Positions 44,276 through 58,903 of a DNA stretch of 64,000 bases are shown in pieces. The notes under the pieces were generated by a model that was given only the letters and a program-made list of their open reading frames with translations, ran no database searches and had not been told where the DNA came from. Position 1 is the first letter of the stretch; every line of letters starts with the position of its first letter. This DNA comes from a virus. The position numbers and the translations under genes are program-made. Where the stretch lies: the IMG/VR virus record IMGVR_UViG_3300006175_000002, positions 1 through 64,000 of that record. One strand, 5' to 3'.

Positions 44276-46150
44276 TCAGGACCAGGTGCCGGTCGACCCG
44301 GAACGGTCGCTGGCCTGGATGCCCTGAAGGATCGCCGAGTACTGCGGCGCGTTCGCAACGACCGCGCCGTAGGTGAACATCGAGTACCGGAACGTCGCGT
44401 CGATGACCGGCCACGAGATCGACAGGTAGTCCTGGACCAGGTTCACCTCGAACGCGTTGCCCACGTTCGACCAGCCGAACGGCAGGTTGTACGACATCAG
44501 CAGAACGGTGCCCTGCGGGAACCACGGGTGGACCAGGATCCGCACAATGCTGCGCGTAACCGGGTTGACGAACTCGCTGACCGCCGCACCAGCCCGGACG
44601 CCGGGGGTGTCGGTCGGCTGAATGAACAGCCGGTAGTTCGTCGCGTTGCCCGACTGCACGATGTCGTCGGAGAGACGCATGATGTCGCCGCCCTCACCGA
44701 CCAACTCGGCCGGGTCGGCGCGGAACGCGCCGGAGCCGTCGTAGACACCCTTCAACGCGTTGTTGATGACCGAAATGCCGAGGGTGTCGCCCACGGACTG
44801 GTTGATGTAGCCGCCCTGCCAACCGGTCGGGTAGATGTTCCCCGCCGAGTGACCGGAAATGACCGACACCAAGCCCTCCTGGCTGTACGCCGAAGAGGTA
44901 CCTGTGTCCGACGACGGGGCCAGCGTGCCGGTGGTTGGTACCGCACCCTGCAAGGTGTAGTTCAAACCGCCGACCTTGGACACCATGATGTGGTAGGTGC
45001 TTGCCGCCGGGGCCGAACCCACCGACACGTAGATGTTGTACCAAAGCGCCCCGGCGACCGGTGCGATCTGCACATCCACCACGCTCGTGCCGGACGTCAC
45101 GGACGACGCGGCAGCAGCAGTCGACACCGCAGTCTCGCCGAACCATGTGGCGGCCGACACCTTGACGTCGAGGATGTTGCTCGTGATCGTGCCCGACAGC
45201 GCCGTCTCACCGGAGTTCGCGGCGCGGGTTGTCACGGTCGGGGCCGAAGGAGTGGTCAGCGCGGTGGAGGTACCCGCGATGTCCATGTACTCCTCGCCGA
45301 GCATGAACTCCTGCAAGAGGATGAGGTTCGCCAGGCCGGCGACGTCCTCGAAGCCCTGACCGGCGAACTGGGCCAGCCACGACACGTTCTCAGACAGACC
45401 GCTGAACCGGTACGGGACGAGGATGTTCACGGAGTCCTGCACACCCGATGGGGGCAGGTTCAACGGCCAGTTGTTCATGTTCGGTGAGCCGGACACCAGC
45501 TCGGGGATACCGAGGTTGACGACCTGACCACCGCTGGATCCGGTCTGGCTGCCGGAGATCCCGGTAACGACCTTCTCTTGGTACGAGGTGCCCTGACCCT
45601 GGGTGCGGGGCAGCTTGTTCCGGAACGGCGTGTACACCGGGTAGATCAGCCGGGTCGGTGCGACCAGGTTGTACGGCACGAGGCCGGTCGCGTTCGGGGC
45701 GGTGAGGGTGAAGTTCTTGCCGGTGAACTGCGTCAGTTGCTGCTGCAACTGGGCGGTCCACGCGTCCATCATGGCCTGCTGCGGCGTGTTCCCGAGGAAC
45801 GACCCGAAGCCCTTCCGGAATTCGGGGGTGAGGGTCTTGTAGACCTCACCGGGCGCGGCGAGGCTGCTGCGGACCGCGGCCTTCCACGCCTTCTCGGCCC
45901 GCATCGCCCGGGAGAACACCTTCTCCGGGTCGGTGAGTGGCTGGTTCGCGCCGGGGTTGATACCGCCGACGTACGCCTTGTCGGTGACGGCGTACCCGGC
46001 ACCCTTGACGAGGGTTGTCATGGCCTCGGTGAGGCGCTGCGCGGCGCGGCTGGGGGTGCCCGGGTCCTCACCGAACCCGCCGGTGATGGCGTAGTCGGGG
46101 TCCAGGCCGGTGGCCGCGGGCGCGACCACCGTTGCGACGTCTGTACTCAT
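44276..46150 (-). CDS. Major capsid protein with inserted beta-sandwich domain
   Basis: A 624-residue protein. The chosen ATG at 46150 (STDVATVVAPAATG) has GAAAGGG upstream; the frame upstream of it is the overlapping protease gene. An N-terminal helical arm precedes TGKNFTLTAPNATGLVPYNL (about 143-162) and LIYPVYTPFRNKLPRTQGQG, typical of HK97-fold capsids in actinophages. About residues 300-430 form an inserted Ig/FN3-like domain (VSAATWFGETAVSTAAAASS, ALWYNIYVSVGSAP, TYHIMVSKVGGLNYTLQG). The end has YLSISWPVIDATFRYSMFTY. Confidence 0.88.
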   Translation of the reverse strand: MSTDVATVVAPAATGLDPDYAITGGFGEDPGTPSRAAQRLTEAMTTLVKGAGYAVTDKAYVGGINPGANQPLTDPEKVFSRAMRAEKAWKAAVRSSLAAPGEVYKTLTPEFRKGFGSFLGNTPQQAMMDAWTAQLQQQLTQFTGKNFTLTAPNATGLVPYNLVAPTRLIYPVYTPFRNKLPRTQGQGTSYQEKVVTGISGSQTGSSGGQVVNLGIPELVSGSPNMNNWPLNLPPSGVQDSVNILVPYRFSGLSENVSWLAQFAGQGFEDVAGLANLILLQEFMLGEEYMDIAGTSTALTTPSAPTVTTRAANSGETALSGTITSNILDVKVSAATWFGETAVSTAAAASSVTSGTSVVDVQIAPVAGALWYNIYVSVGSAPAASTYHIMVSKVGGLNYTLQGAVPTTGTLAPSSDTGTSSAYSQEGLVSVISGHSAGNIYPTGWQGGYINQSVGDTLGISVINNALKGVYDGSGAFRADPAELVGEGGDIMRLSDDIVQSGNATNYRLFIQPTDTPGVRAGAAVSEFVNPVTRSIVRILVHPWFPQGTVLLMSYNLPFGWSNVGNAFEVNLVQDYLSISWPVIDATFRYSMFTYGAVVANAPQYSAILQGIQASDRSGSTGTWS

Positions 46151-46176
46151 GAAGTGCCCTTTCGGGTGCGCGTTCG

Positions 46177-49100
46177 CTAGCTGATTTTCGTGAGCAGTCG
46201 ACCCAACTGGTCTTCTGCCTGCTCGCGGATGGTCGGGTTGTCGGACCCGGCCATCTTTTGCAGGTAAGTGACGTAGTCGGCGTCGGCTGCCGCTTTTTGC
46301 AGTTGTGCCTGTTCGACCAGCGAAACGCGTTCCACGGGAACGATGGCGGGTGCTGTCGTCTGGGCTTTCGCGACGGTGACCGCGCCCCGGATCGGGGCCT
46401 GGGTCGGGTCGGGTGCTGCTCCCAACTCGTCGATTTCGGCGCGCAACGCGTCGATCTCGCGGCGGTGACTCTTGGTGGCCTTGACCACGGCGGACTTGAC
46501 GGCGCCCTTGATGAGCTGGGCGAGGGCGTACTCGTTGAGTCCGGCCGCCACGGGCGGCTGCTCGTCGTAGTCGTCGTCGCTGTAGCTCTTGGTGGCGTAG
46601 GCGATCGCGGCCGGGTCGGTGGGGTGGGGTCGGCTGGTGGCCTGCATGTCGGCGGGCATCACGGGCCGCGACTCGGCCATGGGGCACATGCCGGGAATCG
46701 TGGCCACCAAGTGGTCGTGCAACGCCTTCATTGTGGTCGCGACCGCGGCGCGGCTCGCGGTGGTGTAGAAGTCGCGGGCGGCGCCGGACGCGGTCGATGT
46801 GGTGGGCAGGTTATCGCCCCGGTCCGACGGTGACTGCGCCTGGTGCCCTTCGGTGATCAAGCCGCGGTGGAAGTCGTCGGGGTGGATGGTGTGCGCCACG
46901 GGCGGCACCATCGGGATCCGGGTCGCGGGGGCCGTCATGGTGGCGTGGCCGGCGGCGATGTAGCCGCGCCGGTAGTCCTCAGGCTGCGGCGGTGGCCCGA
47001 AACTCTTCGCGACCATGTCGGCGCGGGCGTCGGCGAGCATCGCCGGCTCGAGGTGTTGGACGATGATGTCGGCGTTGTCGTGGAGGACACCGGCGTACAC
47101 AACCTCGGTGGTGTTGCCCGTTTCGGCGGCCTTGAGGACGAGGGTGTCGAACACGGACGGGTCAACGGCGTCGGCGACGCTGCTGAGCGCCGGGTAGGCC
47201 TGGGTGACGGCGCCCCATTCGTAGGCGGGGCACAGCGCGTCGTGCATGCGTTGGGTGGCGTAGGTCTTCATCACGCTCGCCGAGACGTGGTCGTGTTCGA
47301 TGTCGGGTGTGGTGGTCATGCCTGCGTCGGCCTCCAGTGCTTCGACGGCGTCGCCGTCCGGCTCGCGGTGCGGCCCGGCGGGTAGGACGTCGGGCGGCAG
47401 GAGCCGCTTCTTGTCGGATGGGGGGGCGGTGCTCTTAGCCATGTCGACTCCTGCTGCCTTGATTCTGTGAATGCCGCGTAGTTTCGCGTTCCGGCCGTAC
47501 GCTCCGGCGAGTTCGTCAACGAGCATGGGTTTAGTGAAGGGCTTGCCGTTGCTGCGTTTCGTGTCAACGTTCCACCGGTCGGCGAGCGCCCGAAGTTCGG
47601 CCGCCTTCATGCCGCCCATGATTGAGGCGGCCGCATCGCGGTTGGATGCTCCGGCGAGTTTGCGCCACGCGGCGTCGCCCGGGTGCTCGCCCTGACTGAC
47701 CGATGCTCGGGCTGCTTCGTCGCGCGCCGCCTGCGATCCGGGCATCGCCCGGACCGGTCCGTGGCCGAGCGGAGTAGATCCGGACAGTGTTCGGACGGGA
47801 GGCGCGTCGATCATGCCGCCGCCGCGTCGCATCCGCGCCTCATGCGCCGCCTGGTTGCCTTGGACGGTGGGGTAGATGCCCATGCCGGTCGAGTCGCCGA
47901 GCCGCCCCACCTTCGCGTCGTGCTCAGCGCGGAACCGGGCCACCGCCTGCTCCACGGCCGCCGCCTGCTCCTCGCGGGTTAGTTTCCGGGGCCCGGACGC
48001 GTCGTGAATCTGGTTGCTGCCGTGCCCGTACGGGTTGATCGCGAACGAGTTCTCGAGCGCGCGGCGGTGTCGGTGTTCCCCGACCTGCCCGGCGATCTCG
48101 TGGGCCGGTGCGCCGCGGCGGGGCTTCACACCCTCCCGACGGGCCTCGGCCTGCCACGCGGGGCGGGACCGGCCGTCGAACGAGTCGTGACCGGGCCCCT
48201 TCGCCGGCTTCGCCCCACCCAACAGTTCGGTGTGGCGCTGCTCCCGCGCCTCCGCGAAGTGTCGGGCCGCGATCTCCCCGGCACGGGCCGCGGTCGTCGG
48301 CACCCGCTTCTGCGGCTTCTTGCCGTCGGCTTCCGCCCGTGCCCACTCCGCGCGTACCTCCTGCTCGATGCGGTGTTGCCTCTCAGTAAGGGCACGGTCG
48401 GCGTCATGCGTAGCCGGCACGTTACTGTCGTCCTCCGGTACCGGCCGTGCGTTGCCATGCGTGGACGGCACATTCCCGATGAACGAACCCGCCTTCGGCT
48501 CCGTTTCCTTACCGTGCCGCCGCTCCAACCGCTTCCGCTGCTCGTTCGCCTGCATCACGTGATGCATCGCCTGATCGTGCTGGCCGTGGGCGGCCTCGTC
48601 GTGCGCCATCGCCAAATGCTGATGCAGGTTCCGTTCCGCGACGGTCATCTTCCCCGACGTCGACGGCGCGCCGCTGGTGATCCTCCCGGCGTGCTCCATC
48701 AACCGGTCCGCCAACGCCTTATCCTTGTCGGAGTTGGCAACCATCGACGCCGCGTGCAGGTGGTTCGTCGCCTCAGCCCACTTGCCCTTAGCCATCGCCT
48801 CATGGTGGGCCTTCATGTGCCCATGCAGCCGCGGGTTCGGACCGGGCCCCACCCAGATCCAACCGTGTTTCCACTCGTGGACACCGGCCTTCGTCAGCAA
48901 CGCCTGCGCAGCCTTGCCGAGCATCTTCGGCAGCTTCTTCCCACAATCAGCGCAGCGCCGCGCGCCCGGCTCGTTGCTGGCACCGCACTTGAAACACTTC
49001 AACCCGCCGGCCTTCGTCACCATCGTGGCCTTCGGGAGTTTCTTGCCGCACCCCTCACACTTGCGGGTCTTCGCGTCCGCGTCATACGCCCGGCCGCACC

Positions 49101-50409
49101 CCTTGCACGACTTGCCGCCCTTGGTGAGGTCGGCCTCCATCATGTCCGTCTTCTCGTCCTCATCGTCGTCGATGGGGTCGTGGCGGAACGGGCGCTGCTG
49201 GCCTTGCAGGTTGTACGGCGCCAACCCGGTCGGATTCGGTGACGTTGTGGTGAAGTTCTTCCCCGTCCACGACTCCGGCAATGCCGCCTCGAACTCCGGA
49301 CCCTTCCGGCGAGCGATCGCGCGGAGCCGGGCCTTGAACTTACGCATCGGAATCAGCGGCTTCGCCCGGCCGTAGCTGGATACCGCGTCGGACACGTCAC
49401 CGGGGGAGTGGATCGGGAACCGGCGCCCGTCCGGGTCGATGAAGTCCTGCGCGTCCATCGCGTCCCGGTCGACGCCGCCACCCACGTTCGGGTCGACGTT
49501 GCGTTTCGCCAACCATGTCTGGTAGCCCTGCGCGGTACCGTCCAACCCCAACTCGTGGCCCTCAGCGTCCCACGCCTCCCACTGGCTCATCGCGGCCATC
49601 TTCGCCAGGAACGCGGTACCGGGGCCGATGTCGCTGGCGGGGGCCTTCGGTTCCCGGGCCAACCAGTCGGCGCGGGCCGTAGCGTACGACTTCTGCGTGT
49701 CCTCGGGCTCGCCGTCGTCTTTCTTGCCGTCGCCGTTGTCGCCGCCGTCGGTGTCGTCTTCCTGCTCCTGCACGTCCTCGTCCTGAGCGTCGTCAGCTTC
49801 CGCCTTGCCGCCCTTCGCGTCGCCCTCGTCGGGCTTGCCGCCCTTGGTCACCAGCGCCGCCGCCTCGGCCTTCACGAGCAGGTCAACAAGGTCACCGTGA
49901 GTCCACGCCGCGTCGTCGCCGGCGGATTTGACCAGCGTGATCCCGCACCCGTCGTTCGCGGGCCGGTCCACGAGGCTGATCTCCGCTACTTCCCCGCCGG
50001 TCACGATCCCACCACGCGCCTTACCGGTGAGGTCCCGTTTGATCGTGGGCCGGGCGATCCCGACGGAGTAGGCGCGGAGCACACCGGCGCGGACCAGTTT
50101 CATCGCGGTCGGTTCCACGATCAGCGACTTCACCCAGTGCCCGCCGTCGCCGTCGCGGTCAACCTCGACGGAAACACCGCGGCCGGCTGGATAGAGCTGT
50201 GGATTATGGGAGACGCGTACGTTTCCGCCCGTCTCGAGCCATTTCTGGATCGCCGATCCGGACCACTCCGGCGAGACAACTTGATCATCGGCATCGACAC
50301 GACCATCGCTCGCCTTGCCATAGACCATGATGCCGTCGTCGACCTCCTCCATCTTGGCGATGGGGATGCTCATGTAGAGCTTGTGGTCTGCTGCCAAGGT
50401 GGCGGCCAT
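46177..50409 (-). CDS. Giant prohead protease/scaffold fusion
   Basis: A 1410-residue protein. Residues about 10-170 form an HK97-type prohead protease: DGIMVYGKASDGRVDADDQV, NVRVSHNPQLYPAGR (His) and RAGVLRAYSVGIARP (Ser). Then come an acidic region, a segment shared with the major capsid protein (TGKNFTTTSPNPTGLAPYNL near 385), two zinc ribbons (CKGCGRAYD ... CEGCGKKLP; CFKCGASNE ... CADCGKKLP), HGWIWVGPGPNPRL near 515, a Lys/Gln-rich helical stretch and a SAP-like helix pair (ELRALADRWN ... KPMLVDELAG). A long scaffold-like C-terminus with HDHLVATIPGMCPM ends in DYVTYLQKMAGSDNPTIREQ. It is far longer than typical proteases (about 200 residues). Confidence 0.85.
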   Translation of the reverse strand: MAATLAADHKLYMSIPIAKMEEVDDGIMVYGKASDGRVDADDQVVSPEWSGSAIQKWLETGGNVRVSHNPQLYPAGRGVSVEVDRDGDGGHWVKSLIVEPTAMKLVRAGVLRAYSVGIARPTIKRDLTGKARGGIVTGGEVAEISLVDRPANDGCGITLVKSAGDDAAWTHGDLVDLLVKAEAAALVTKGGKPDEGDAKGGKAEADDAQDEDVQEQEDDTDGGDNGDGKKDDGEPEDTQKSYATARADWLAREPKAPASDIGPGTAFLAKMAAMSQWEAWDAEGHELGLDGTAQGYQTWLAKRNVDPNVGGGVDRDAMDAQDFIDPDGRRFPIHSPGDVSDAVSSYGRAKPLIPMRKFKARLRAIARRKGPEFEAALPESWTGKNFTTTSPNPTGLAPYNLQGQQRPFRHDPIDDDEDEKTDMMEADLTKGGKSCKGCGRAYDADAKTRKCEGCGKKLPKATMVTKAGGLKCFKCGASNEPGARRCADCGKKLPKMLGKAAQALLTKAGVHEWKHGWIWVGPGPNPRLHGHMKAHHEAMAKGKWAEATNHLHAASMVANSDKDKALADRLMEHAGRITSGAPSTSGKMTVAERNLHQHLAMAHDEAAHGQHDQAMHHVMQANEQRKRLERRHGKETEPKAGSFIGNVPSTHGNARPVPEDDSNVPATHDADRALTERQHRIEQEVRAEWARAEADGKKPQKRVPTTAARAGEIAARHFAEAREQRHTELLGGAKPAKGPGHDSFDGRSRPAWQAEARREGVKPRRGAPAHEIAGQVGEHRHRRALENSFAINPYGHGSNQIHDASGPRKLTREEQAAAVEQAVARFRAEHDAKVGRLGDSTGMGIYPTVQGNQAAHEARMRRGGGMIDAPPVRTLSGSTPLGHGPVRAMPGSQAARDEAARASVSQGEHPGDAAWRKLAGASNRDAAASIMGGMKAAELRALADRWNVDTKRSNGKPFTKPMLVDELAGAYGRNAKLRGIHRIKAAGVDMAKSTAPPSDKKRLLPPDVLPAGPHREPDGDAVEALEADAGMTTTPDIEHDHVSASVMKTYATQRMHDALCPAYEWGAVTQAYPALSSVADAVDPSVFDTLVLKAAETGNTTEVVYAGVLHDNADIIVQHLEPAMLADARADMVAKSFGPPPQPEDYRRGYIAAGHATMTAPATRIPMVPPVAHTIHPDDFHRGLITEGHQAQSPSDRGDNLPTTSTASGAARDFYTTASRAAVATTMKALHDHLVATIPGMCPMAESRPVMPADMQATSRPHPTDPAAIAYATKSYSDDDYDEQPPVAAGLNEYALAQLIKGAVKSAVVKATKSHRREIDALRAEIDELGAAPDPTQAPIRGAVTVAKAQTTAPAIVPVERVSLVEQAQLQKAAADADYVTYLQKMAGSDNPTIREQAEDQLGRLLTKIS

Positions 50410-50486
50410 CGCGACTCCTTACTTCGACATTGGTGCGCAAGAGATCTGCGCACCCGACAGGGCGCGCTGATGGAGGGGGTGGCGGG

Positions 50487-53400
50487 TCAGGCGGCGAGGA
50501 GTACGGTGCGGGCTTTCCACACGTACTCGGCGGCGCGGAGGATCATGCTGTATTCGTCGGCGGTCAACGCGGCCTTGTTCGCGGAGCCTTGCGCCTGGGC
50601 GCGGCGTACCCGCTCCTCCCAGTCGGCTTCGATCCGGTTCGCGACTTCGGTGTAGAGCTTGGCCATGTCCTGCCACGTCTTGTACCGGTTGTCGTAGCGG
50701 CCGAGGTCGCTGGCGTCGGCGTCGGCGATGTTGCGTTGCCGTAGCTCGGCGGCTTCCCGCAACCGCTGCACGGCTTCGGTGGGGGACAGCCGGTTCGCGA
50801 CGGAGGTGTTGCGGTGGAAGCCTTGCAGGATCTGTTGCAGCGTCGAGTCTGCCGCCTGGGTGGTGCCGTACTGGTTGGTCAGGCCGGATGGTACGCCGAG
50901 CCCGTCGGCGGCTTCTGTGATGTGCTGGGCAACGTTGGCCGGGGTGAACGGCATGGGTTTGGGTCCGTACCGGTGGACGTGGGCTTGTTCCGCGGCGGCG
51001 TGGGCGAGGCTGCCGGTGGTGTGGTTGGTGGAGTCGTGCGAGACGAGTTTGGTACTGCCGCGCCGTTCAGGTTCGACAACGATCGCCGAGTACGGATCTG
51101 AGGGTTTGCGCTCATCAGGTACGACCCATGCCCGGTTCGTGCCGGGTGCGGCGTCCCAGACCCGTCCGGTGCGTTGACTGGTGGTGCCGTCTTCGTGGTG
51201 GTGGGTCCAGGCAACCTTGGCGCCGGGGTCCAGGCCGGTCGGTTCAACGTAGTTGACCTCGGCGGGGGCTTTCGGAGCGAGGCCATGGGTACCACGGCGG
51301 GCCGGCTTCGGGATCAGCGACGGCAGCGGCTTCACCTTGACCGGTGGGGCGTCCTTCACGTGGGGTTGCAGGACGGCCTTGATTTCCTCCAGCGACCCGA
51401 ACGGCTTCCCCTCGTTGTCGGACGCCTGGGGCCGGTCGGGGTGCCACCGGTTCGCGCGGGCAGCGGCGATGGCTGGACCCTCGTCGATCGTGCCGGTCGG
51501 GAGGACATGGAACTTGTCGCGGTTGAAGCCGGCAGGGACCTTGACGGGGCTGCTGGTCGGGTGGTCGCCGAGGTCGCCGTACCGCAGCGGATGGTACGTC
51601 TTGACTTCACCGTCCTTGCTGGCGCTGGCCACGCGAACCAACTCGAACTGCTTGCCCTCCTGCCGGCCGCCGCCCTGGTGGTACGTGGTGGACGTGGTTT
51701 CGCGGATGGCGAGGTCACCATGCTTGGCGCGGGCGCCGGTGACTACCGGCCGGCTGGCGGCGAGCGCCTGCCGGGCCGCTGCGGCGCGGGTCGCTTGCTC
51801 GGCTGCGGCGGCTTCCGCCCGGACTCGTTCGGCGGCGGCCTGCGCCTGCATCTCCTTGACCTTGGCGGCTTCGCCTGCGAGGACCTTTGCGTCTTCGTCG
51901 GTGGGCTTGACGTGGATCTGGTTCAGCGGTACCCAGTTCGGGTACTTCCGCTCGCCTTCGGTGGAAACCACGGCGCCGTCGATGCCGTGGTTTCGTTCGA
52001 GTCGTACGACGTGGCCGGTGCTGAACCCACCGTGCTTGACTCGGTCGCCGGCCTGGACCGGGCGGGATGAGCGGGTGGCGGGCATCGTGAACTCGTGCGC
52101 GTCGTTCGGCCGGGCCGGCTCGCCGAGCGAGGCAGGCAGGTCGGTCTGCGACACCCGTGGCATCTCGGTGCCGGTACGCCCGAACACGCTGCCCGGCTTG
52201 CGTAGCTGCCCGGTCCGCTCCTTGTAGCCGACGGATTGGTTAACCAACTGTTCGATCAAGTCGGCTTTCTTCGTCTTCCTGGGGCCGAATGATCGGTAAT
52301 TGTGCTGACGCCGGTAGGAGTCGTTGATGTCGCGCAACTCGGTCATGCTGCGACCTTGGAGCATCGCCCTAGCCTGGTCCTTGCTGGTGGCCTCGTGGAG
52401 TCGCCTGGATACCTGCCACGATTCTTCTTTGGGCGGCTCGGGCGGCTTGACAATGCTCTCCGGCACCGCGACGGCAACGGCTGGCGCCTCCGCCTTCGGT
52501 GTCGCCGGCCGGTGGTCGGTGACCCGCGCCCACGGGTATTTGACGTCCATGCCGCGACCGGCGTCGATCTGGACGGTCTTCTCGTTGGCTTTCTGGACCC
52601 GCCACCACGTTCCGTCGACCTTGATAGCGTCCCCGGCCGACACGGTGTGCTTGCTGTACTTGCCGGCGGCGTCCCGCCGGGCGGTCAACTCCTTGAGTTG
52701 CGCCTCGGCGCGGATGTGCTGCGACTGGGCTGCGTCCCGCGCTTTGCGCGCCTCGACGTAGCGGCTCAGTTGCGCATCAGTGCTGCCCCGCCGGCCACCG
52801 CCGCTGCCGCCGGTACCGAGGGGGAAGTGTTCCCCGAGTGCTTCGGCTTTCGGGTCACGGGATGCCGCCTGAAATGCTGCCTCGGCCCGGTCGAGGCGTT
52901 CCCGGGTGACCTTGACGCGGGCCTCAGCATCGGCGATCTTACGGTCACCACCCGATGGCGCCGCCGCCGGCAGGTCGGCCTTTTGGCGCTCGATCTCGCT
53001 CCGGATCTGGTCGTACAGGCTCCGCGGCGGGGGGTTGGCCGTGTTCGCGAACACGGCGTCCAGGTTCTCGTCGGTGGGTTCATCCGTGCGCCCCTCGCGC
53101 ACCACGTCCGCGATCCACTTGCCGGCGAACGACGAGGCGCGGCTCTGGTCCTTGGCCTCTTGCGACCCCCGCGCAGGTACCGCCGCTGCCGGAGTTGGCG
53201 CAACGGGCGCCGGCGGCTTGACTACCGCCGCCGGGCCCATGCGGTCCGTCTGCACCTGCGCATCCGCCGCCAGCCGATGCTCCGACTCGGACAGTGGGCG
53301 CTTCTTCGACGCGTTGTGCGCCACCCGGGACACGAAACTCATCCGCTCCGGCCCGGTAGCGGAATGCTCGAACGCCGCCTTGTGACCCGAGGAGAAGTGA

Positions 53401-53633
53401 ACCTCGCTGGTCTTCTTCCCCGCCCGTACCACCCTGCCGTGCCCGTGCGTCGGGTGGTGCACCAGCGAACCGACACCGGGTGCCCCGACGAAGATCCAGC
53501 CGTGTTCGTAGCCCTTCGGGCCGACCTTCAGCAGCTCCGCCCGTGCCTGCTCGCAGACCATCGGATCCGCCGACTTCGTCAGCCCAACTAGGTACGCCAC
53601 GTACTCCTCGTCGACCAGTACGGCAGTGTCCAC
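50487..53633 (-). CDS. Large modular head-module protein
   Basis: A 1048-residue protein with a GTG start. The N-terminal repeat (EYVAYLVGLTKSADPMVCEQ) is followed by GPKGYEHGWIFVG and an SH3-like module (HHPTHGHGRVV ... VHFSSGH). Further beta modules (AGDAIKVDGTWWRVQKANEK; AGDRVKHGGFSTGHVVRL; GAKVAWTHHHEDGTTSQRTG) alternate with helical linkers, including a SAP/Rho-N-like pair (TELRDINDSYRRQ ... KADLIEQLV). No enzyme motif is recognised. It is probably an internal or capsid-associated virion protein. Confidence 0.75.
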   Translation of the reverse strand: MDTAVLVDEEYVAYLVGLTKSADPMVCEQARAELLKVGPKGYEHGWIFVGAPGVGSLVHHPTHGHGRVVRAGKKTSEVHFSSGHKAAFEHSATGPERMSFVSRVAHNASKKRPLSESEHRLAADAQVQTDRMGPAAVVKPPAPVAPTPAAAVPARGSQEAKDQSRASSFAGKWIADVVREGRTDEPTDENLDAVFANTANPPPRSLYDQIRSEIERQKADLPAAAPSGGDRKIADAEARVKVTRERLDRAEAAFQAASRDPKAEALGEHFPLGTGGSGGGRRGSTDAQLSRYVEARKARDAAQSQHIRAEAQLKELTARRDAAGKYSKHTVSAGDAIKVDGTWWRVQKANEKTVQIDAGRGMDVKYPWARVTDHRPATPKAEAPAVAVAVPESIVKPPEPPKEESWQVSRRLHEATSKDQARAMLQGRSMTELRDINDSYRRQHNYRSFGPRKTKKADLIEQLVNQSVGYKERTGQLRKPGSVFGRTGTEMPRVSQTDLPASLGEPARPNDAHEFTMPATRSSRPVQAGDRVKHGGFSTGHVVRLERNHGIDGAVVSTEGERKYPNWVPLNQIHVKPTDEDAKVLAGEAAKVKEMQAQAAAERVRAEAAAAEQATRAAAARQALAASRPVVTGARAKHGDLAIRETTSTTYHQGGGRQEGKQFELVRVASASKDGEVKTYHPLRYGDLGDHPTSSPVKVPAGFNRDKFHVLPTGTIDEGPAIAAARANRWHPDRPQASDNEGKPFGSLEEIKAVLQPHVKDAPPVKVKPLPSLIPKPARRGTHGLAPKAPAEVNYVEPTGLDPGAKVAWTHHHEDGTTSQRTGRVWDAAPGTNRAWVVPDERKPSDPYSAIVVEPERRGSTKLVSHDSTNHTTGSLAHAAAEQAHVHRYGPKPMPFTPANVAQHITEAADGLGVPSGLTNQYGTTQAADSTLQQILQGFHRNTSVANRLSPTEAVQRLREAAELRQRNIADADASDLGRYDNRYKTWQDMAKLYTEVANRIEADWEERVRRAQAQGSANKAALTADEYSMILRAAEYVWKARTVLLAA

Positions 53634-53636
53634 CGG

Positions 53637-55088
53637 TCATGCCCCCTTCGGCGGTTTCGGCAACGCGTTCGCGTACTGGTCAAGCTTCTCCGCCAACTCG
53701 CGGGCCTGAGCAGGCGTCAGGGACGACATCCACCCCTGCTCCCGCTCGTCCTGTGACATCGGATCCCACGGCTTATCGCCGCGCTCATGGGCGGTGACAC
53801 GAATGATCGGCTGGTCGCCGGTGGTGTCGAGGTGCATGTGCAGATCAGTCGGGTCCATGTCTAGGTCCCGCTTTTCCTTCACGACCCGGCGGAGCCGTTT
53901 CTCATCCACGCTCGATGCTGGGATATGCGGGGCGAGGAGGGCGAGGAGGTCCTTGTAGGTGATCGGTAGTTCCTCGCCGTCGATATCCATCTTGTCGCCG
54001 AGTTCGATCCGGTTCCGTTCGGCGTAGTTCTGGATCAGTTCGGCAGCGCGGGAGTGTTTCGTCGGCTTCGTGATGGTGGGTTTCTCACCCGACTCAGCAA
54101 TCGTGGCAAGGTCGCGGAGGTGGTCGGCGGCCTGGCGGGCGCCTTTCGCGTCGAGGTTGGCCGTCGATGGCGTCGTTGATCCGCTGGTGGTTTCGACACC
54201 GATTTCGGGGGCATCGTCGTCGTAGTTGAAGATGTGCAGATCAACGGGGGTGTTGCCGGTTTCGATGCGGTGGCTGGCGTGGTAGGTGATACCGGAATGA
54301 TTCGCCCGACCGCTGGTGTATCCGAGCGCATCATGCACACCCGCGTCGACGGGGATCCATCCGTGCCAGTACTTCTGGCCCGGCTTCGGGATCCGGTCCC
54401 CTTCCGCCTTGATTAGGGTGGCCGCCGCGTTCTTCTTCTTGACCTTGTGGCCCTTACCCCACGCCGCCGTGGCCGCCGACAGGGCTGTCTGCTCGGCAGA
54501 GATTCGGCTCTCGACGGCCTTCAGCGCGGCAACGGCCCCGACCCGGCGGCGAGCCATTGTGGCCTGCGTGTGGGCGGTCGCGTTGGCTTTGCCCGCTTCG
54601 GCGTCGAGCGCGGCGACCCGGGCGGCGAGTTTCGCCTGTCGGGCTTTGAGGTGGGCCATGGTGACGGCGATACGCAGGATCGCGGCGGCGGCAGCCCGTT
54701 TCGCCGGCGACATGTGCCGCATGCTGTTCGGGATGCCGTACTGTTTGCGGGCGGCTTCCCGGGCGGCGTGGGAGTCGGCGTAGCCGCTGTGTGCGGCATC
54801 GTCGCGGGCGAGCCGGTCAGCGACCTCGCCGCCCTGGACGGCGTCGTCGTAGCGGGACTGGGCATCGTGCTGGCGGCGTTCCCGCCCGCGGCGCTGCGAC
54901 GTTTCGGACGTGGTGGTAGTGGTACCACCAGTGGTCCACCGGCCGGCGGCGCGGGGTTCGGCGAGGTTGAACCCGTACTTGAGGAGCGTGTCACGGGCCT
55001 GCTCCGCGGTGGTGCGGTCAGCGGATTTGGTGAGCACTGTGAGGTAGGCGATGTACTCGTCGGGGTCGACGTTGGTTAGGACAGCCAC
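53637..55088 (-). CDS. Head-module protein with HGW motif
   Basis: A 483-residue protein with a GTG start overlapping the upstream gene. The N-terminal repeat (DEYIAYLTVLTKSADRTTAE) is followed by a Gly/Thr-rich linker, a long coiled coil (LKARQAKLAARVAALDAEAG), and KPGQKYWHGWIPVDAG near residue 243. A beta domain (HRIETGNTPVDLHIFNYDDD) and a second alpha/beta domain follow (MDPTDLHMHLDTTGDQPIIR). The function is unknown; probably virion-associated. Confidence 0.72.
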   Translation of the reverse strand: MAVLTNVDPDEYIAYLTVLTKSADRTTAEQARDTLLKYGFNLAEPRAAGRWTTGGTTTTTSETSQRRGRERRQHDAQSRYDDAVQGGEVADRLARDDAAHSGYADSHAAREAARKQYGIPNSMRHMSPAKRAAAAAILRIAVTMAHLKARQAKLAARVAALDAEAGKANATAHTQATMARRRVGAVAALKAVESRISAEQTALSAATAAWGKGHKVKKKNAAATLIKAEGDRIPKPGQKYWHGWIPVDAGVHDALGYTSGRANHSGITYHASHRIETGNTPVDLHIFNYDDDAPEIGVETTSGSTTPSTANLDAKGARQAADHLRDLATIAESGEKPTITKPTKHSRAAELIQNYAERNRIELGDKMDIDGEELPITYKDLLALLAPHIPASSVDEKRLRRVVKEKRDLDMDPTDLHMHLDTTGDQPIIRVTAHERGDKPWDPMSQDEREQGWMSSLTPAQARELAEKLDQYANALPKPPKGA

Positions 55089-58000
55089 GGTGTCATCTCC
55101 CTAACCAGGTCGGGCTTCTTCATACGTTTCACCTCGTCGCGCCCGCCGAGCGTGCCGACGATGCCGTGCAGGCGGGCCAGCTCGCGGAGCGCGGCGACGG
55201 GGAGCGCCTTGAGGGTGGTTTCGGTGTCGCCGCCGGCCCGCAGGTGCTGGAGGGCTTCCTGGGCGGCTTCGGTCGGACCCAACTTCGTCGGCTTCGGGGC
55301 GGTAATCGGGTCCAGGCGCTGCCCCTGGCCCGGTACGCGTTCCTCGATCTTGATGTCGTGGGCTGCGTCCACGATCGGCATGCGGCGCTCGCGGCGCCGC
55401 TGGTTCTCGGGGCCGCCGTTGATCCGGTCAATGTGGTGCTGGCGCAGCGCCAGGGCTTCCTCTTCGCTGCCGGCGTGGCCGAGGACAGCGGTCGTCTGGC
55501 CACGGTTGTTGACCTGCACCACCTGGTACTGCACCGGCCCGGCCGGGCTCGGCGGGGTTTCAGCGGCGCGTACCGCGGCCGGACGGCGCCCACGGGGCGC
55601 GATCGCGACCCGGGCCGGCACGTCCGGGGTACCCGCCGGCTGGACCGTAGCCCGTGACACCGGCACCCGCTCCCCGCCGGGCAGGGTCGCCACGTGCCCA
55701 GGCCGGACGATCTCCACCTGGCTGCCTTCACGCAACGGCTGCCCGAACGGATCGTGCGCGCCCCGATTGAACGGCACAACCTCGCCGGCGGAGCCGACCC
55801 GCTCGAGGCCGGCCTGGGTCGCCATATGGTCGGCGGCGGCGAGGAGGGTGGGCGGGTCGTCGGCGAGGGTGGCGAGGTGGGTGGTGTCGACCCCGACGCG
55901 GTTGCCGTGGGCGGTGATGCGGGCCCGTAGGGCCTGCGGTGAGGCGCCGTGGTTGACCAGTTCGTGGGCTTCGGCGACGACACCACCGACGGCGCGGGCC
56001 CGGTCGATGTGGGCCTGCCGGGTCCGGGCGGCGTCCTCCGCCGAAACGGTTGGCGTTCGCCGTTCCCGGATGGCTGCCGCTGTTTCCCGGATGTGCGTGG
56101 GCGCGCCGGGCCGGTCCATGGCGAGGATGCGATCCTCCGCCGCCCGAGTTACTTCCGACGCCACCGCAGGCGTGGCCGCCAACTGGTCGGCCCGGGCCCG
56201 CATCTCGTCGACCTGCTGTTGCTGCTCGAGTCGCCGCTGCCATTCGGCGGTCGTGGCGCCCTGGCCGGTACCGACCGGGCCGGCGGGTGTGTGGTGGCGG
56301 CGGCTGGTGGATCCGGCGGCGGGTAGCCCAGCGTCCAGGGCGCGCTGCCGAGCTGCGGCGTGGACGCGCAGCGCCTCGGCCTCCATACGCGGCGACACCA
56401 CCGGTGCGGCGGGTGCGGGTGTTGGCATGACCCGGTCGAGCAGTTCCGGGGATGCGTTCCCGCGTCGCAGCAACTCCACCTCAGTCGCCGCCGCGCTCAG
56501 CCGGTCGCCGAGCGGGGTGCCGCGATGCCGGCGCGCCTCCTGCTGCAACACCGCCGCCTCATACCCCCGGCCGCGCTGCGCGCCCGCCAGCGTGCGGAGC
56601 ACCTCCGACGTGGCCGGCTTGCCCCGCAGGGGCTGCGTAAACCGCGGGTCGGCCTCCATCTCGCGGCTGAGGTTCGCCAGGTAGGCGGACTCAACTGACC
56701 GGGCCCGGACCACGTTGCCGGGCAACACCTGCTCCGTGGTGCCATCGGCGAACCGGACCGTGGCGAGATGATGGCCGCCGACGCGGGCGGTGCCGATGTC
56801 GAGGACGGTGGCCTGCTGGTCGGTGCGGTTGTGAAGGGTGGTGGCGATGGTGACGGTGTCGCCGGGGACGAGAGCCGTTCCGTGGGCGTCGGTTTCCGGT
56901 TCCACCCCGGAGCGTGTCAGCGGCTGAATGCCTGGTGTCGGCGCGGTGTTACCTCGCCCCATCGCAATCATGTGGCGGTCGCTGTCACCGAGCCGGACCG
57001 CTGCCGCCCGGTCCCGCGAACGCAACGCCCTAGTGTTGTCGACCGGGGCCACGCGTACGCCGGGCTCCCGGGCCAACTCGCCAAGGGCCGCATCCACCTC
57101 GCCCCGGTTCAGGTCGCCGAGGTCGTCACGTAGATCGGCCAAACCAACCCAGCCGCCGGGAGCCTTGGGTCGCGCGTCGTAGGCAGCCCGAACGCGATCT
57201 TTTACCTCAGCCGTCGACCTAGTCGCCGACAAGGGTGTGACGTGGGTGCCGGGCGCCACGTACGCCACTCCCCGCCATCCGTTCGCACCACCAGGCGTTT
57301 CCGTGACCTGTACCGCGACCGCGTCACGCTTCTTACGCCCGCGGGCCCCGATGCGTACCCCGGTCGGCTGGGACACGTAGCCGCGCAGGGTGATCGGTTT
57401 CCCGTACTGGTCCTCGCCGACCACCTCGGCGTAGTTGCCGTGCTTCAACTGCTCCACCGGGACCGTTGTGGCCGGCGGGGGTAGGCGCTCGAGCCAGTTT
57501 CCGCCGCGCATAGCCGCCGAGTCGAGACGCGCCCCGACGGTGGCGTGGACGATTCCCTCCCGGCGCTGCCCCACCGGCCCCCGACTGACTGACAGGTGAT
57601 CGGCGAGGGCTTGCAGCTCTTTGCCCTTGATGCCGGCCACGTACTGGCGGGCCTCGTCCCGCGACGACATGGCGTGCAACCGGTCGTAGTGCTCGGCCGG
57701 GGTGGGTGTGCGGGGCACCGTATGCGTCAACTCGCGGGGCAGCCCTGGCGGGAAAACGTCGGGCGTGATGTCCTCTGGCCCTTTGCCGAGGCCGAGCCAC
57801 CGGTTGCGTTCCTCTGGGGGCATGGCGTCCCAGATTCGCAGCTTCTGGGCGTTCGTGTACTTCCGGGGCCGCGCCATCGGCGTCTCGGGCTTCTTCGGCG
57901 CGGCGCCCGGTGGGACGTAGCCGGACAGCATGTCTGCGGACACCATGCCACCGCTACCGTCGTCGAACTCCACATGGTGGGCGCTGCCGCCGCCAGCGCG

Positions 58001-58861
58001 GCCGGTGGAGTCCATGTCGTCGGGTCCGCCGTAGATGACCGGGCCACGGTTCCGGTGGATGAGTCGGTCCCCGACCTTCCACCCCGACCGGATCTGCGTA
58101 TCCCGGGCAGCATGCCCCGTCAGCTCGGGCGTTGCCGGCTTGGCTGCTGCTTCCAGCCGCGCGGCGAGCGCCCCGGCCCGGGTGTGGATCTCGTCGCCCG
58201 GCTGGCTCCGACGCGGCCCCTGCAACCGGGCCAACGCCTCCCGAACCGCAGTCCTGTCCTCGTCGGACATCGCCCGCCAGTCCGGGCCGGTCAACGCCTC
58301 CATGGGCCGTATCGCGCTGTACGGGTTGCCGCTCCACGAATGGGTCGCCGCTTCCCTCGCCCGCTCGATCCGGGCCGACTGGCCACCAGCAGCGACCGCG
58401 GCGCGGGACGCGTCCCGCGCCGCCCGCTCCTCCGGGCCGGTCCCCGAGCCGTGCCCGGGTCGGCCGATGAAGTGCGACCCGCCTACGCCCGGCGCTTCCG
58501 GCTTGTGCTCGAACGCGTGGTACCCCGAGTCGAACTGGATCCCGACCGTTTTCGATCCCCGGCGGGTCATCACGCCGCGGCCCAGTTCGGGGTGATGCAC
58601 CTCGAACGGGTGCGTCAGCTTCGCCGGCCCGACGTAGATCCACCCGTGGATGTAGCCCTTCGGACCGACTTTGATCAGATCAGCGGTGACCGTCTTCACC
58701 CACGTCGGGTACGGCAACTCCAACCCGAACGCGTCGCCCTCACCAGCCCACTCCGACCACGCCGCCCGGCCCAGCCCACCCATCTTCGACAGGGCAGGCT
58801 CCCGCGCCGACCAGTCAGCGCGCAACTCCTGGTACACGGCCAGCAGCGACGTGTCAGTCAC
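55076..58861 (-). CDS. Very large modular head-module protein
   Basis: A 1261-residue protein. The N-terminus (ELRADWSAREPALSKMGGLG) matches part of the protease fusion. GPKGYIHGWIYVG (near residue 68) and an SH3-like module (HHPELGRGVM ... IQFDSGYHAFEH) follow. Further beta modules (GDRLIHRNRGPVIYGGPDDM; HGNYAEVVGEDQYGKPITLR; GDTVTIATTLHNRTDQQATV) alternate with SAP/Rho-N-like helices (KELQALADHLSVS; ALRELARLHGIVGTLG ... KKPDLVREMTPWLS at the end) and a long helical region. No catalytic motif was recognised. Confidence 0.75.
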   Translation of the reverse strand: MTDTSLLAVYQELRADWSAREPALSKMGGLGRAAWSEWAGEGDAFGLELPYPTWVKTVTADLIKVGPKGYIHGWIYVGPAKLTHPFEVHHPELGRGVMTRRGSKTVGIQFDSGYHAFEHKPEAPGVGGSHFIGRPGHGSGTGPEERAARDASRAAVAAGGQSARIERAREAATHSWSGNPYSAIRPMEALTGPDWRAMSDEDRTAVREALARLQGPRRSQPGDEIHTRAGALAARLEAAAKPATPELTGHAARDTQIRSGWKVGDRLIHRNRGPVIYGGPDDMDSTGRAGGGSAHHVEFDDGSGGMVSADMLSGYVPPGAAPKKPETPMARPRKYTNAQKLRIWDAMPPEERNRWLGLGKGPEDITPDVFPPGLPRELTHTVPRTPTPAEHYDRLHAMSSRDEARQYVAGIKGKELQALADHLSVSRGPVGQRREGIVHATVGARLDSAAMRGGNWLERLPPPATTVPVEQLKHGNYAEVVGEDQYGKPITLRGYVSQPTGVRIGARGRKKRDAVAVQVTETPGGANGWRGVAYVAPGTHVTPLSATRSTAEVKDRVRAAYDARPKAPGGWVGLADLRDDLGDLNRGEVDAALGELAREPGVRVAPVDNTRALRSRDRAAAVRLGDSDRHMIAMGRGNTAPTPGIQPLTRSGVEPETDAHGTALVPGDTVTIATTLHNRTDQQATVLDIGTARVGGHHLATVRFADGTTEQVLPGNVVRARSVESAYLANLSREMEADPRFTQPLRGKPATSEVLRTLAGAQRGRGYEAAVLQQEARRHRGTPLGDRLSAAATEVELLRRGNASPELLDRVMPTPAPAAPVVSPRMEAEALRVHAAARQRALDAGLPAAGSTSRRHHTPAGPVGTGQGATTAEWQRRLEQQQQVDEMRARADQLAATPAVASEVTRAAEDRILAMDRPGAPTHIRETAAAIRERRTPTVSAEDAARTRQAHIDRARAVGGVVAEAHELVNHGASPQALRARITAHGNRVGVDTTHLATLADDPPTLLAAADHMATQAGLERVGSAGEVVPFNRGAHDPFGQPLREGSQVEIVRPGHVATLPGGERVPVSRATVQPAGTPDVPARVAIAPRGRRPAAVRAAETPPSPAGPVQYQVVQVNNRGQTTAVLGHAGSEEEALALRQHHIDRINGGPENQRRRERRMPIVDAAHDIKIEERVPGQGQRLDPITAPKPTKLGPTEAAQEALQHLRAGGDTETTLKALPVAALRELARLHGIVGTLGGRDEVKRMKKPDLVREMTPWLS

Positions 58862-58903
58862 CAGCGCACCCTCCGGCCGTGATGGAAAGATTCGATCATT
58901 GCG

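Follow-up and report, generated by a model that had tools for sequence, protein, structure and literature searches.

For most uncultivated phages, neither the position at which the capsid protein is cut nor the site choice of the maturation protease is known. In herpesviruses, the assemblin protease is fused to scaffold-like sequence and cuts itself at release and maturation sites with a shared consensus. The capsid protein of phage HK97 is cut during maturation between K103 and S104, and the mature protein starts at S104 (PMC10275583). Before cleavage this stretch is disordered in the proheads of both HK97 and D3, and the authors of the D3 study suggested that the disorder might make the site accessible to the protease (PMC12749128, PMC10275583). 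The protease gp245 of phage SPN3US cuts both itself and head proteins after the motif AXE, and its self-cleavage has been demonstrated (PMC10052503). Cleavage motifs common to head proteins and a phage protease are already known, but the literature that we searched, which covered few subscription journals, holds no description of a site copy of 18-20 residues that is matched to the phage's own capsid. A copy of such length, matched in this way, is an unusual variant of a shared site. Here we describe a probable case from IMG/VR, in a virus record that is 103,389 bases long and whose positions 1 to 64,000 form the stretch analysed (the window).

A capsid segment repeated in the protease fusion

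The two genes and the segment that they have in common are located as follows.

44276..46150, minus strand: major capsid protein (MCP), 624 aa, with an N-terminal helical scaffold (delta) domain, an N-arm and an HK97 fold (profile and model)
46177..50409, minus strand: prohead-protease fusion of 1410 aa, encoded immediately upstream of the MCP (PHROG profiles, gene order)
45665..45724, minus strand: shared segment of the MCP, residues 143-162, with a putative cut at or next to the K145-N146 bond (45718-45713) (model, alignment, conservation)
49207..49266, minus strand: shared segment of the fusion, residues 382-401, with putative self-processing between K384 and N385 (49260-49255) (sequence comparison)

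The MCP segment, TGKNFTLTAPNATGLVPYNL, and the fusion segment, TGKNFTTTSPNPTGLAPYNL, are identical at 16 of 20 residues and 46 of 60 bases. When the whole MCP was compared with the whole fusion by BLASTP, the segment was recovered with E = 2e-7 and no other notable match was found outside it. A profile built from both copies scored 99 and 95 for the two copies and below 34 for every other open reading frame (ORF) of the 103,389-base record, which thus revealed no further copy, for example in a second scaffold or the portal. The MCP block scored 84 against the fusion, compared with a mean of 24.7 and a maximum of 47 for 2000 shuffles of the protease. From the ORF-scan and shuffle scores we conclude that the likeness is real and far from chance, and chance resemblance is ruled out by these two analyses together with the BLASTP E value. 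The sequence-only reading, which had noticed a near copy of a capsid segment in the protease fusion, is confirmed on this point.

The scaffold/N-arm joint of the capsid protein

The MCP is a member of phrog_13692 (E 2.8e-65), and a sequence search found no solved structure for it. It was modelled from 84 relatives (mean pLDDT 77), which replaced a model from 19 sequences (pLDDT 43.5). Two domains flank the shared segment.

45725..46054, minus strand: MCP residues 33-142, predicted helical delta/scaffold domain (model)
44303..45646, minus strand: MCP residues 169-616, HK97-type capsid fold (model and structure alignment)

Among solved structures, HK97-type capsids have the most similar folds, with Foldseek E values as low as 9e-11 and Z scores of 16.8 over 267 residues for the mature HK97 capsid and 20.1 for SPO1. 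In the model, the helical N-terminal domain (helices 33-50, 75-98, 100-106, 109-120 and 124-142) precedes the N-arm and ends at the shared segment, and residues 142-168 form a disordered stretch (pLDDT<50) between the delta domain and the HK97 fold. Residues 305-400 (window 44951-45238) form a confidently predicted insert rich in beta structure, Ig/FN3-like by eye, which relatives also have.

Structure alignment placed HK97 residue 104, the first of the mature protein, on model residue 144, in agreement with the placements of D3 residue 124 on 154 and T5 residue 166 on 151; because the alignment ends in a low-confidence stretch, the position of the mature N-terminus is good to a few residues only. 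Model residue 144 adjoins the conserved K145, with which the shared block opens. In the 39 MCP contexts whose blocks align without gaps, there is free variation at residues 139-144 and then an abrupt onset of conservation at residue 145, which is lysine in 36 and arginine in three. The pattern [KR]-x-[mostly hydrophobic]-[TSDN] is present in 69 of 76 distinct contexts. The model and the sequences together suggest that the segment is the delta-domain/N-arm joint, the most likely place of capsid protein cleavage, and that the delta domain is presumably removed by proteolysis at or next to K145.

The copy in the fusion

The fusion comprises four recognizable regions besides the copy.

49915..50382, minus strand: serine protease domain, residues ~10-165, with conserved residues including H68, S115 and D148 (profiles, alignments)
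49267..49458, minus strand: domain RRFPIHSPGDVSDAVSSYGRA...RRKGPEFEAALPESW, residues ~318-381, conserved in most relatives
48940..49107, minus strand: double zinc ribbon, residues 435-490 (Pfam DZR, paired CxxC motifs)
46180..47262, minus strand: C-terminal region, residues ~1050-1410, conserved in all aligned fusion relatives

The fusion matches the head maturation protease profile phrog_80 (E 1.8e-4) and phrog_21715 (E 3.6e-15), and all relatives examined likewise have the protease gene followed by the MCP gene. A Pfam search gave no peptidase match for the fusion itself; the protease of MMB025, a distant relative, matches Peptidase_S78_2 (XkdF, PF14550) at 6.7e-6, over the curated cut-off. 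H68 and S115, presumably catalytic, are invariant in three copy-bearing fusions and also kept in a wider alignment of 13 fusions. Judged by its sequence, the domain at residues ~318-381 is probably helical. The zinc ribbon matches Pfam DZR at E 8.5e-5, under the curated cut-off, and the C-terminal region may be scaffold-like.

The copy fills the linker between the helical domain and the zinc ribbon. Lying between conserved domains, it is better kept than the linker on both sides: the fusions of the near relatives L004 and L010 retain K...NLQGQ between flanks of differing length and sequence.

Compared with its counterparts in L004 and L010, the fusion has ~550 additional residues, at ~500-1040 (window 47290-48912), and these include an HGWI-type element (like KVGPKGYxHGWIxVG). 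This element occurs in four consecutive ORFs of the head region (window 46180-58903), all on the minus strand, at 55079-58903, 53640-55100, 50490-53636 and 46180-50418, the last being that of the fusion itself. Relatives have similar elements too: L129 in two ORFs, and L113, L155 and L076 in one ORF each. A second short module common to neighbouring proteins was observed at the C-terminus of the fusion, YVTYLQKMAGSDNPTIREQAEDQLGRLL (46180-46300); the ORF upstream begins with a similar stretch at its N-terminus, YVAYLVGLTKSADPMVCEQARAELLKVG (53500-53633).

Relatives with and without the copy

Loci were gathered from viral contigs with MCP and protease queries and yielded 76 distinct protease/MCP pairs. 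A clear copy, at the shuffle floor, was found in six: the window, its near relatives L004 and L010, the distant MMB025 and Thermoanaerobacterium phage THSA-485A, and L203, a near-twin of THSA-485A. In the other 70 pairs a segment resembling the phage's own MCP was unrecognizable in the protease, with scores spread like those of shuffles. The copy is likewise absent from relatives in Herbaspirillum, Neisseria and Brevundimonas and from those phages of Streptomyces, Rhodococcus and Arthrobacter that were examined. Since these 70 pairs keep the protease and the MCP, the copy is not needed in general, and a property of the whole family is ruled out. Surveys of the genomes of one phylum for XkdF or phrog_13692 gave nothing new.

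A tree of the MCPs unites the window with L003, L004, L005 and L010 in a supported clade and sets MMB025, THSA-485A and L203 apart as another group far from it; the L003 contig stops before the relevant part of the protease. The presence and absence of the copy require at least four changes on this tree, and the copies at its two ends either date far back and have stayed in step or were acquired more than once. The sequence-only reading had named absence or lack of conservation in relatives as the result that would count against it, and the outcome is divided: the segment is absent from 70 of the 76 pairs, but two near relatives retain it, and two distant lineages (MMB025 and THSA-485A) have one of their own that matches the local capsid.

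Two observations concern relatives without a copy. The protease at L005:860-3116 lacks the helical domain and the segment, both missing together. A calcium-loop-like acidic stretch, F-x-GAAxPFDGxDxDGDG, often occupies the same place in the protease linkers of copy-less relatives (L006, L008, L014, L043, L045 and L184); the idea that GAAxPFDG is a worn-down copy was formed by eye, and the likeness does not rise above shuffles.

Match to the local capsid

Each protease copy was ranked against 59 distinct MCP motifs. The phage's own motif ranked first for MMB025 and THSA-485A, second for the window and L203, third for L010 and seventh for L004; for the window and L203, the top-ranked motif was that of a sister phage. 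In MMB025, KTLDTSSGLQPYNL corresponds to KTFDTSSGLQPYNL, with DTSSGLQPYNL common to its protease and MCP, and the same agreement between the two proteins is seen for VASGL..YNL in THSA-485A, PLSSGLVPFNL in L010 and TGL.PYNL in the window. At shared residues, synonymous codons were identical at 10/14, 7/11 and 10/15 positions, against 8.0, 7.1 and 6.1 expected from codon usage. This agreement barely exceeds expectation and leaves recent gene conversion unsupported; silent sites are near random, and the likeness therefore lies at the protein level. Together with the match to the local capsid, this indicates that protein selection or old, repeated copying keeps the copies alike.

These data bear on whether the copy is a functionless relic, left when recombination carried an MCP fragment into the neighbouring gene. 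Its patchy distribution, which takes four or more changes on the tree, and the adjacency of the genes would suit such an origin. We nevertheless regard a relic as highly improbable, as 11-15 of 18 residues are kept while silent sites are near random, the linker around the copy is not kept, and the copy recurs in distant lineages, each time with the sequence of its own capsid.

All six protease copies have lysine at the supposed cut (slash): K/NFT, K/DIT, K/NIT, K/TLD, K/DLT and K/DLT. Autoinhibition, in which the substrate-like copy would occupy the protease's own active site in cis until assembly, to be released when MCP sites outcompete it or when it is cut, has in its favour that such a sequence lies in the same chain, one conserved domain past the protease. 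If the copy were a pseudo-substrate that resists cleavage, loss of the cut residue would be expected, yet the lysine is retained throughout, and we consider this explanation very unlikely.

The best-kept half of the copies is GLxPYNL, which belongs to the N-arm and lies 11-17 residues downstream of the supposed cut. This speaks for a mimic or docking tag, by which the copy would imitate the start of the N-arm and bind the inner surface of the shell, either recruiting the fusion into the procapsid or holding the N-arm site until expansion. Tracking of the phage's own MCP is also what a partner surface would require. On the other side, the copies retain the lysine and the x-hydrophobic-T/D stretch at the supposed cut as well, most relatives have the same fusion without a copy, and the N-arm is disordered in the procapsids of HK97 and D3, so no groove for it is known there (PMC10275583, PMC12749128).

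One cleavage site, probably used twice

We propose, with moderate confidence, that one site of the maturation protease is present twice, on the MCP and on the protease fusion. In a few related lineages the copy resembles the capsid protein of the same phage, so that a single cut site is probably common to enzyme and capsid. On the MCP, the protease would remove the scaffold at the delta/N-arm joint after procapsid formation, probably after K145. On the fusion, the same active site would probably cut the linker after K384, separating the protease part (residues 1-384) from the zinc ribbon and the C-terminal part during maturation. We infer cleavage at either site, the exact bond and self-processing alike; a self-cut is the most likely event at the copy, because the protease chain holds the cut sequence of its capsid in an accessible linker. 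Self-processing would also fit known practice, by analogy with gp245 of SPN3US, which cuts itself as well as head proteins.

Of the two roles suggested by the sequence-only reading, a recognition site common to both proteins is now the better supported, given the location at the scaffold/N-arm joint, which is where proteases of the HK97 type cut, the conserved Lys/Arg at which conservation begins and the alignment with the mature N-terminus of HK97. Mimicry of the capsid by a scaffold is less favoured and has no direct support: in the procapsids of HK97 and D3 the stretch is disordered rather than docked (PMC10275583, PMC12749128), and for this reason we favour a free substrate over a docked arm. 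Two features do not fit a plain cut site. Known phage cleavage motifs have 3-4 residues, far fewer than the 18-20 shared here, and cleavage alone does not account for how strongly GLxPYNL is conserved, as far as 17 residues downstream, which may reflect a longer recognition sequence for the protease or capsid docking. Because this conservation is unexplained by cleavage alone, our confidence in the shared site goes no further than moderate, and the mimic is kept as an unlikely alternative.

The copy might also do both jobs, with the fusion cutting itself at K384 and the released C-terminal part docking as an N-arm and staying in the virion, which we think quite unlikely. If this were so, the released part (~1000 aa) and the mature capsid protein would have the same first residues, and the phage would possess an internal head protein tagged with a self-made capsid N-arm and kept in step with the capsid.

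A protease that carries its capsid's site, as proposed here, names that site in sequence, and pairing the two across lineages offers a cheap prediction of cleavage sites and protease specificity. MMB025 and THSA-485A provide small natural pairs for telling shared recognition from capsid docking.

Comparison with known systems

The locus resembles gp4/gp5 of HK97 in the order of protease and MCP, in the N-terminal scaffold domain on the MCP and in the capsid fold. The junction of scaffold and N-arm is cut after lysine in HK97, between K103 and S104 (PMC10275583), as we infer for the present MCP. Unlike in HK97, the protease here lies within a fusion of 1410 aa with helical, zinc-ribbon and C-terminal regions, and it carries a long copy of the MCP site. 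We know of no report of a capsid-site copy in the HK97 protease. With gp245 of SPN3US the locus would share the use of one recognition motif in head proteins and protease; the SPN3US motif is fixed and has three residues, whereas 18-20 residues are shared here and change together with the local MCP. In the herpesvirus assemblin system the major capsid protein is not a substrate and the consensus is short, unlike here. A further counterpart is MMB025, an Alicyclobacillus phage with a Peptidase_S78_2/XkdF-like protease, which has a related protease domain, a similar helical domain and, at the same place in the protease, a copy of a segment of its own MCP. Its MCP is ~25% identical to that of the window, and the sequence of the copy is its own.
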